A DNA stretch of 43,425 nucleotides from Acidobacteriota bacterium (GTDB taxonomy: Bacteria; Acidobacteriota; UBA6911; RPQK01; JACQSY01), in the NCBI GenBank assembly GCA_016211085.1, contig JACQSY010000077.1:1-43425 (forward strand), in the 5' to 3' direction. Every line of letters begins with the position of its first letter. Positions within the stretch are counted from its first letter, which is position 1. Of the stretch, positions 22,600 to 43,425 are shown piece after piece. The position numbers were made by a program, and so were the translations under genes. The notes beneath the pieces are model-generated. The model made no database searches. It had not been told where the DNA came from and saw nothing but the letters and a program-made list of their open reading frames with translations.

Positions 22600-23046
22600 A
22601 TGAAAGAATTTTTTTTCTTCTTCCTGATGGGCGGCATGTTGGGTGCGGCGGGCGATAATTTCACAGATGCGCTCTTCCATAACTACTTCCTCATTCAGGA
22701 AAACCTCTCCAAGGACGCTACTGAAGGCAACAAAACGGCTGCGGCTGGGTTAATTCAGGCGGCATCGAAAATCAGTCCTAAGAGCCCCGAACAGAAAAAG
22801 TTGTTGGCGCAAATTAACCAGGCCGCTGCTGAGGTTGCAGGGGAAAACCTTGACAAGGACCGATCCGCGTTCGGAAGCTTGTCCAAGTTTCTTCAGCAGT
22901 ACCTGGCAGCTTTTGCCGCGGCCAGTCCCTACCCCGTTTACCACTGCAGCATGATCAACAAGACCTGGATACAACGGGAAAAGGGGATCAAGAATCCTTA
23001 TTACGGCAAGAAGATGCTCACTTGTGGGGAGCAGATCAAGCCTTAG
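22600..23046 (+). CDS. Small exported DUF3347-like protein
   Basis: 148 residues. Short hydrophobic leader (KEFFFFFLMGGMLGAAG). The C-terminal PVYHCSMINKTWIQREKGIK followed by NPYYGKKMLTCGE matches the end of DUF3347, a domain found alone or in heavy-metal efflux adaptor proteins, where the HC..M and M..CG residues may bind copper or another soft metal. The helical middle (EGNKTAAAGLIQAASKIS) is also typical. AGAGGAA lies before ATG 22600. A metal-related role in the periplasm is inference from the family. Confidence 0.8.
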   Translation: MKEFFFFFLMGGMLGAAGDNFTDALFHNYFLIQENLSKDATEGNKTAAAGLIQAASKISPKSPEQKKLLAQINQAAAEVAGENLDKDRSAFGSLSKFLQQYLAAFAAASPYPVYHCSMINKTWIQREKGIKNPYYGKKMLTCGEQIKP

Positions 23047-23061
23047 TACGCCAATTGATAA

Positions 23062-23158
23062 ATACGGTAACGTTGGTTGTGAGCGCGACGGCGGCCAAAG
23101 GCGCTCCTCCTCTCTCCTGGACCTTGCCTCGCAGGCCCCCTTGCAAACGTTACCGTAT
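23062..23158. repeat. 97-bp inverted-repeat element between convergent genes
   Basis: Perfect 13-bp terminal inverted repeats, ATACGGTAACGTT 23062-23074 and AACGTTACCGTAT 23146-23158, enclose 71 nt that contain an inner hairpin GAGCGC 23081-23086 / GCGCTC 23101-23106. There is no coding sequence and no clear flanking target duplication. It could be a MITE-like element or a bidirectional terminator/structured RNA. It lies 15 nt after one gene and 75 nt from the end of the opposing one. Confidence 0.6.
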
Positions 23159-23233
23159 GGATGAATGAGGATACTGAGGCGCCAGCTGCTTTCTTTCTTG
23201 TTGTCGGTTGAAAAATGACCCGGCGTTCTCAGT

Positions 23234-31096: not shown

Positions 31097-32389
31097 ATGG
31101 GACTCAGAGAGAAGATTCTTGCCAAAAAAGCAGAAATCGGGATCGTGGGCCTGGGCTATGTCGGCCTGCCTCTGGCAATGGAATTTGTGCGCAGCGGGTT
31201 CTCGGTGCATGGCATCGACATTGATGAACAAAAAGTATGTGAAATCAACAGGGGAAATTCCCATGTGCTGGACATCAGCAATGAGGTCCTGGGTGCCGCC
31301 CTTCAAAGCGGACGCTTTCGGGCCTATTCTGATTACGGGGTGGTTGCGCGCCTCGACTGTGTGTCCATTTGCGTCCCCACTCCCTTGCGCAAAACCAAGG
31401 ATCCGGACATCAGCTACATCATCGATGCTACTCAGAACATTCGTAAGCATGTGCACGAAAATATGCTGGTCGTTCTGGAAAGTACAACTTACCCTGGAAC
31501 CACTGAAGAGATTCTGATCCCCGAATTCATGAATGGTCAGTATCAACTGGGCAAGAACCTTTTTGTGGCCTTCTCACCGGAACGTGTGGATCCCGGCAAC
31601 CCTGTCTACAATACACGGAACACTCCCAAGATCATTGGGGGGGTCACTCGCGAGTGCACCGAGCTGGCCCGGCTTTTGTATGAGCAGGTGATTGATAAGG
31701 TGATTCCGGTTTCATCGACAGCAGCGGCGGAAATGGTGAAGCTTTTGGAAAATACCTTTCGGGCGGTCAACATCGGTCTGGTCAACGAAATAGCGATCAT
31801 GTGTGACAAGTTGGGGGTGCCGGTCTGGGAGGTCATTGATGCGGCAGCCACCAAGCCTTTCGGCTTTATGCGTTTTACACCGGGCCCCGGCCTGGGCGGT
31901 CATTGTATTCCTATTGATCCGCTATACCTTTCCTGGAAGCTCAAGATGCTCAATTACAATGCCAGATTCATAGAGCTGGCCAGTGAAGTAAACGCACATA
32001 TGCCGGAGTACTGTGTGCAGAAGATCACTCGTGCTCTCAATCACGTAAAGAAATGTGTCAACGGGTCGAGAATTCTCATCCTGGGCGTTGCTTATAAGAA
32101 AGACATCAGTGACGTGCGTGAGTCGCCTGCGCTCGACATCATGCGACTGCTCGAACAGGGAGGGGCATCGGTGGACTATACAGATCCTTACGTGAAGGAA
32201 TTGAGGATGGACGGACAATTGCGCAGAGCTATTGAACTGAGCCCTGAGGCCGTCCGTAGCTACGACTTGGCGGTAGTTGCCACTGACCATTCACTCTTTG
32301 ATTATGAGATGATACAAAAGGCTGCGCCCTTGATTTTCGACAGCCGTAACGCCTACAAGGCAAGCTTTACAAATGTGATCAAGCTGTAA
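31097..32389 (+). CDS. wbpA: UDP-N-acetylglucosamine 6-dehydrogenase-type nucleotide-sugar dehydrogenase
   Basis: 430 residues. NAD-binding IGIVGLGYVGLPLAMEF, CVPTPLRKTKDPD, the STTYPGTTEE segment, FSPERVDPGN, and the catalytic C270 in PGPGLGGHCIPIDPLYL. The GLGGHCIP form and the TYPGTTEE block are typical of WbpA/WbpO-type enzymes that oxidise UDP-GlcNAc or UDP-GalNAc to the uronic acid. Full length. ACAGGAGG sits before ATG 31097. The 199 nt before it carry no gene. Confidence 0.92.
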   Translation: MGLREKILAKKAEIGIVGLGYVGLPLAMEFVRSGFSVHGIDIDEQKVCEINRGNSHVLDISNEVLGAALQSGRFRAYSDYGVVARLDCVSICVPTPLRKTKDPDISYIIDATQNIRKHVHENMLVVLESTTYPGTTEEILIPEFMNGQYQLGKNLFVAFSPERVDPGNPVYNTRNTPKIIGGVTRECTELARLLYEQVIDKVIPVSSTAAAEMVKLLENTFRAVNIGLVNEIAIMCDKLGVPVWEVIDAAATKPFGFMRFTPGPGLGGHCIPIDPLYLSWKLKMLNYNARFIELASEVNAHMPEYCVQKITRALNHVKKCVNGSRILILGVAYKKDISDVRESPALDIMRLLEQGGASVDYTDPYVKELRMDGQLRRAIELSPEAVRSYDLAVVATDHSLFDYEMIQKAAPLIFDSRNAYKASFTNVIKL

Positions 32390-32441
32390 GGCCATTTTTT
32401 CTCTTCAACAATCCCCGCGAGTACGCTACAGGAGGGCGGTG

Positions 32442-42219: not shown

Positions 42220-43245
42220 CTAAAAAAGCCTAGGCAGTGTTTCGCGATAATCGGGGCGGGCAATCCCGGCTTCGGTGATAATAGCGGTAATCAGCCGCGC
42301 AGGCGTTACGTCGAAAGCGGGATTGGCGACTTCGACGGAGGCTGGAGCCACCGGCTTTCCCAGTATTTCAGTTACTTCAGCCCTGCTGCGCTCTTCAATA
42401 GGAATGAATTCCCCCGATGGGGTCTCTAGATCAATGGTGGAAAGGGGAGCCGCCACGTAAAAGGGAATGCCGTGTTCCCGTGCCAGAACGGCGACGCTAT
42501 AGGTGCCTATCTTGTTGGCAGTGTCTCCGTTTCTTGCAATGCGATCCGCGCCGACAATGACCGCCTGAATCGCTCCTGATTTCATAAAATGACCCGCCAT
42601 GTTGTCCGTGATCAATGTGCAGGGAATGTTCTCCTGAACCATTTCCCATGCAGTCAGCCGGCTGCCTTGCAGGAAAGGCCGTGTCTCATCTGCGAACACG
42701 TGAATCTTTTTTCCTTTGGCCACGGCCGCTCGGATCACGCCCAGCGCCGTGCCATAACCTGCGGTCGCCAGGGCCCCGGCATTGCAGTGCGTCAAAACTG
42801 TCTGCTGGGGTCCGAGTAGAGTTTGACCTTGCTCTCCAAGACGGCGGTTGATCTCGATATCTTCACAATAAATTTGTTGCGCTTCGTTCTTAAGTGCCGA
42901 TTTCATCTCCTCCAGCGACTTCCCCCGGTTTTTTTCGAAGGCTTTTTTCATACGCTCAACAGCCCAAAACAGGTTGCGCGCTGTGGGACGTGTGTTCTGA
43001 ATTTCCGCACAGATGTCGGCAAACCGCTGCTCCACATCGTCTTTAGAAGGGATTTGCTGAACGCCGAGCGCAATTCCCATGGCAGCTGCCACTCCAATGG
43101 CGGGCGCACCTCGCACTACCATATTGCGGATAGCATCGGCAACCTCTTCCGCAGTTTTGAATGTCAGATACGCCTCTTCGGATGGAAGGAGGCGCTGGTC
43201 GATCATAACAATTCCATCATCTGTCCATTCGAGCGTACGTATCAT
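42220..43245 (-). CDS. mtnA: Methylthioribose-1-phosphate isomerase
   Basis: 341 residues from ATG 43245, matching the family N-terminus ([20 protein letters not shown]); a TTG at 43281 with GGGAG upstream is the alternative. Methionine salvage enzyme that isomerises 5-methylthioribose-1-phosphate to the ribulose form. Seen: [17 protein letters not shown], the catalytic cysteine in [38 protein letters not shown], the catalytic aspartate in [20 protein letters not shown], and [20 protein letters not shown]. Complete. Very close relatives act on ribose-1,5-bisphosphate, but the motif set fits MtnA. Confidence 0.95.
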
Positions 43246-43312
43246 GGCTTCAAAATACACCAGCGCGGGAGAAGCAAACAATAGGCACTCCCGGACTTAG
43301 TACCCCGATTCA

Positions 43313-43425
43313 GTGCGCCGTGAAAGGCGCAGATCTCTAGTGGGTGCAAAACCCACCCGGCAACTATCGCTCCAGCCGGTAGCAACGGGAGCGGTGATGG
43401 AGGTAACAACATCACCGAAGCCTCC
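43313..43425 (+). mobile_element. 5' end of a group II intron (cut by the window edge)
   Basis: The stretch begins GTGCG, the conserved 5' end of bacterial group II introns, and then shows only RNA-like structure with no coding sequence. Perfect stems: TGCGCC 43314-43319 / GGCGCA 43326-43331; GTGGGT 43340-43345 / ACCCAC 43351-43356; CCGGC 43357-43361 / GCCGG 43375-43379; CGGTGATG 43392-43399 / CATCACCG 43410-43417. The GTGGGTGCAAAACCCAC and AGCAACGGGAGC blocks are familiar from domain I of such introns. The reverse transcriptase and 3' end would lie outside the window. It points away from mtnA and starts 68 nt before that gene's ATG. Confidence 0.7.

Follow-up and report, generated by a model that had tools for sequence, protein, structure and literature searches.

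The window analysed here, a 43,425-nucleotide contig (C63) of the 152-contig, 87% complete assembly of an Acidobacteriota bacterium, ends in the 5' end of a group II intron that is present in at least 11 copies in this genome, all of them inserted at the same place within the terminal inverted repeat (TIR) of a short, dispersed repeat resembling a miniature inverted-repeat transposable element (MITE). With a probability of roughly 0.88, these copies represent a multicopy mobile intron which, together with a reverse transcriptase/maturase, recognises the MITE-like TIR by EBS–IBS pairing, reverse-splices into it and is copied into DNA. The behaviour is best read as retrohoming of an endonuclease-less intron into transposon-like repeat ends, with retargeting from genome to genome.

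The intron occupies positions 43313–43425 of the window and is interrupted by the contig end at 43425. A sequence-only reading had placed a GTGCG boundary followed by four perfect stems at 43313 and had interpreted them as domain I of a group II intron. Boundary and stems are present exactly as described: GTGCG, of the GUGYG type, starts at 43313 and recurs in 11/11 copies, and the stems that follow are GCGCC..GGCGC, GTGGG..CCCAC, CCGGC..GCCGG and GGTGATG..CATCACC. The 113-nt intron start folds at -47.1 kcal/mol (z -3.2), a value equalled by 2 of 200 shuffled sequences. The search against Rfam group II models that had been proposed as a check returned the covariance model group-II-D1D4-4 (RF02003) at 43338–43425 with 66.3 bits and an E value of 1.7e-12, above the gathering cut-off of 49 bits; the match is incomplete at the contig end and covers just 88 of 138 model positions, whereas relatives of the intron match the model over its full length. 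The stems and the RF02003 match show that the feature is real and that its identification as a group II intron holds. The identification is further supported by AY-ended domain V/VI 3' ends elsewhere in the genome and by relatives that carry a reverse transcriptase/maturase.

The insertion adjoins an mtnA-like gene that is transcribed away from the intron (Table 1); the gene name combines the sequence-only call with a reading of the sequence by eye. The distance of 68 nt between intron and mtnA start, as given in that earlier reading, is correct for the minus-strand ATG at 43245, but would be shorter if the in-frame TTG at 43281 is used.

Table 1. Coordinates of the intron, its target and the neighbouring gene in the window
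Feature	Position	Strand	Basis
Empty MITE-like element, both ends, intron-free	23042..23179	+	Similarity match 23042-23103 and inverted partner 23146-23178
mtnA-like gene (S-methyl-5-thioribose-1-phosphate isomerase)	42220..43245	-	ORF 42220-43281, internal ATG 43245
Outer end of the MITE-like TIR, CTTAGTACCCCGATTCA, including the likely IBS2	43296..43312	+	Motif at 11/11 intron 5' ends
Putative IBS1 GATTCA, final six bases of the 5' exon	43307..43312	+	Location; complementarity expected from seven relatives
Intron 5' end (boundary GTGCGCC, start of domain I)	43313..43425	+	RF02003 and ten more copies with the same boundary

The copy number follows from contig ends. The same intron 5' end closes ten other contigs, and in each case unrelated upstream DNA joins the intron at the identical base. 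Matching 3' ends, recovered in two rounds of searching, the first with a domain V motif of the relatives and the second with the sequence that this motif had retrieved, are found on eight contig ends. They contain the lower part of domain V (GCGGGAAATCCGC..TGTCCGGTTCGACGAGCGGG) and an extended stem of domain VI, with AC as the last two bases (...CTCGACTCTAC, ending in CTCTAC), are 100% identical over their shared parts and terminate in ...CCACATCTCGACTCTAC / CGCGCCACATCTCGACTCTAC. The domain V model RF00029 made no call on these eight ends, in which domain V is only partly assembled. C95 and C124 are bounded by intron ends on both sides. The occurrence of 5' ends on 11 contigs and 3' ends on eight indicates that a multicopy intron broke the assembly, and shows why the intron disrupts short-read assemblies and appears as an isolated fragment.

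The middle of the intron, with the EBS loops and the reverse transcriptase, was not found in this assembly. A search with the AH-259-G07 relative as query returned only the same 11 ends, and an exact-pattern scan for the domain I core in collections of genome contigs and viral contigs gave no match. The loss of the middle fits the expectation that a collapsed high-copy repeat drops out of a short-read bin. Two candidates for the missing part were rejected: the domain V at C97:32362 differs in sequence and belongs to another intron, and the reverse transcriptase at C58:5140 shares 41% identity with the lineage protein over a short stretch. C97 carries at ~32240-32440 (L012:4240-4440) a second, unrelated group II intron, which looks short and frame-less and has an RF00029 domain V of 44.4 bits, while C58 (L011:3299-4612) carries a third, of another lineage, whose 437-aa reverse transcriptase/maturase is intact and scores 385 bits against TIGR04416.

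All 11 copies sit 14-17 nt inside the TIR of a MITE-like repeat of roughly 130-280 bp (CTTAGTACCCCAATTCA/TAAATACGGTAACGTTTG...). The outer repeat end forms the 5' exon in every copy, so that position and direction of the intron relative to the repeat end are constant, and left and right ends are both occupied. The motif CTTAGTACCCCGATTCA precedes the intron in 11/11 cases and is weakest at C62. Mean identity between copies reaches 86% in the 14 nt before the intron, compared with 23%, the chance level, in the outer flanks. Joining the 5' and 3' flanks predicts the empty site CTTAGTACCCCAATTCATAAATACGGTAACGTT. This uninterrupted target occurs at 16 places with up to three mismatches, and a reversed control pattern at none; a longer joined-flank query gave 44 similarity matches, with E values of up to 10. 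At least 24 distinct repeat ends are empty, including both ends of the element at 23042-23179 of this window.

Many of these ends face each other in inverted orientation at a distance of 137-282 bp; their terminal 35 nt are near-perfect inverted repeats, and the interval is free of genes. The element in the window folds as a hairpin (z -2.3). The repeat thus fits the description of a MITE: it is short, has terminal inverted repeats, contains no gene and occurs in many copies. CTNAG stands at many repeat ends, yet the two sides of one element often disagree, and the target-site duplications that were inspected are not consistent. An unsystematic look revealed no transposase-bearing partner. As an inverted repeat stands at both ends of a dispersed element, the repeat offers dozens of equivalent sites, of which at least 11 are filled.

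Related introns are present in four genomes of the same order (G001, G013, G014 and G015) and in one of the same class (G037), within a class-level sample of 38 genomes. The protein of the lineage also occurs in Acidobacteria bacterium AH-259-G07, Bryobacterales, Edaphobacter, a Phycisphaerales bin and Aromatoleum. Full proteins of the relatives comprise 438-476 aa with reverse transcriptase and maturase domains; those of L048 and L051 match RVT_1 and GIIM, score above the TIGR04416 cut-off and gave no match to an endonuclease (HNH) domain. Absence of that domain is the mark of the endonuclease-less classes C, D, E and F.

The target differs between hosts. AGYCCGCATTTCTCR precedes the introns of G001, G013, G014 and G015, with GG in place of AG in one G013 copy. 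AGYCCGCATTTCTCR is itself a dispersed inverted repeat with 11-29 exact copies per genome (controls 0) and builds short closed elements; the joined flanks of the intron on G013:C18 match an empty 244-bp element on G001:C14. The introns of these four genomes thus share the habit, while the target sequence is different. The G037 copy has a different flank, unlike either repeat.

Some relatives have themselves been hit by other elements. In the AH-259-G07 intron (G015:C214; L043:1-1180) the reverse transcriptase is split by a frame that by eye looks like a serine recombinase, and a minus-strand frame resembling a transposase gene interrupts a G013 intron (L040:1727-3514). In Aromatoleum anaerobium LuFRes1 (L051:552-3600), the intron is apparently split by transposase-like frames in two identical 373-aa copies.

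Pairing between intron and target can be followed in the relatives, in which the EBS1 loop lies ~220 nt into the intron on a conserved hairpin. Across seven relatives, 39 of the 42 base pairs that EBS1 could form with the six exon bases preceding the intron are present, and both partners change together: TTAACA occurs with TGTTAA, TTAACG with CGTTAA and TTCTCA with TGAGAA. As good a pairing was reached in just 6 of 5040 re-pairings of a permutation test, a number to be read in the light of the choice of the EBS1 position by alignment and of the close relationship of several of the introns. An EBS2-like AATGCGG stands opposite CCGCATT in the relatives L040 and L041.

Among the 11 IBS1 sequences of this genome, positions -1 to -4 are invariant, and variation at -5 and -6 is confined to A/G. 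Such variation is expected opposite U, and EBS1 of these copies is therefore predicted, by analogy with the relatives, to be TGAATT or a G-U variant. Two intron sub-types can be distinguished by base 19 (A or T); position -5 of IBS1 is A in 5/5 copies of one and 2/6 of the other, and although these numbers are small, the sub-types may perhaps prefer left or right repeat ends.

In the proposed mechanism, the intron RNA and its reverse transcriptase/maturase would recognise ~12-14 nt of the TIR via EBS1–IBS1 and EBS2–IBS2. Reverse splicing would take place between ...ATTCA and TAAATACGG..., followed by copying into DNA. Second-strand synthesis would probably be primed from the replication fork, as in other endonuclease-less introns, because the protein of the relatives lacks an endonuclease domain (PMC4424553, PMC5894124). 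For the copies in this genome, the protein and the EBS sequences would be of the kind seen in the relatives, and the intron is presumably still mobile.

A common position in a common repeat could also arise if the intron had entered one MITE-like element a single time and the element had then carried it by transposition to ten other places. The identical spot in all copies and the near identity of the introns would fit this history, which is nevertheless improbable. The 3' flanks are left-type ends at C26 and C121 and right-type ends at C96 and C124 (the flank at C32 cannot be assigned to the repeat with confidence, and C142 retains only the far end), and they belong to elements of differing internal length, which points to separate insertions; backbones that differ from intron to intron are already largely in evidence. 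In addition, the 14 nt adjacent to the intron are more variable than the intron itself (96% identity, lowered by one indel), and the same lineage resides in another repeat family in related genomes. A structured RNA of another kind or an array of terminators, suggested by the presence of strong stems in other non-coding RNAs too, can be set aside almost entirely in view of the Rfam E value, the sharp insertion boundaries, the AY-ended domain VI and the protein-coding relatives.

Somewhat less remote, though still unlikely, is a decayed family, in which the copies are remnants of past retrohoming and are immobile now in this organism. In its favour, no reverse transcriptase of the lineage was found in the assembly, and the copies in G013 and G015 have other elements inserted in them. 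The absence of the gene from a short-read bin is, however, what a collapsed high-copy repeat leads one to expect, and the near-identical ends on 11 + 8 contig ends, with no difference between the 3' ends over their matched part, indicate recent spread. Retrohoming by an intron that is probably active remains the preferred reading.

Group II introns need landing sites that are safe and renewable, and the ends of small dispersed repeats supply dozens of them. Conversely, insertion of the intron could block the repeat by breaking its end. A wider proposal, put forward tentatively and at somewhat less than even odds, is that a lineage within one acidobacterial order has specialised on the TIRs of non-autonomous elements, that its EBS loops re-evolve to match the abundant MITE-like family of each host, and that sub-lineages possibly prefer left or right ends. 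With 11 occupied and at least 24 unoccupied ends in a single genome, and a second target family in related genomes, the introns provide a natural data set on the evolution of target choice.

Several known introns show related behaviour. Group IIC and IIC-attC introns insert at inverted-repeat DNA such as terminators and attC sites (PMC4424553, PMC7923331), but they combine an IBS1 of 3-4 bp with a hairpin that replaces IBS2. Neither feature is found in the present lineage, which has a 6-bp IBS1 and, in close relatives, EBS2–IBS2 pairing, and whose two repeat arms are usually far apart. RmInt1 is endonuclease-less, multicopy and homes to the repeated mobile element ISRm2011-2 (PMC5894124); its natural target lies inside an IS630-family element, whereas here it is an inverted-repeat end. 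A review of prokaryotic MITEs makes no mention of introns (PMC10969869), and a literature search, with most subscription journals outside its coverage, found no group II introns in MITEs. The closest precedent in behaviour is RmInt2 of Sinorhizobium meliloti, for which both inverted repeats of ISRm17 serve as targets (PMC5894124). ISRm17 is an insertion sequence, while the repeat targeted here is short, has no recognised gene and is present in dozens of copies in a member of the Acidobacteriota; in contrast to RmInt2, the present lineage targets more than one repeat family, depending on the genome. Homing of group II introns into mobile elements is thus already known; what is new is the location of all 11 copies inside the TIR of a MITE-like repeat.
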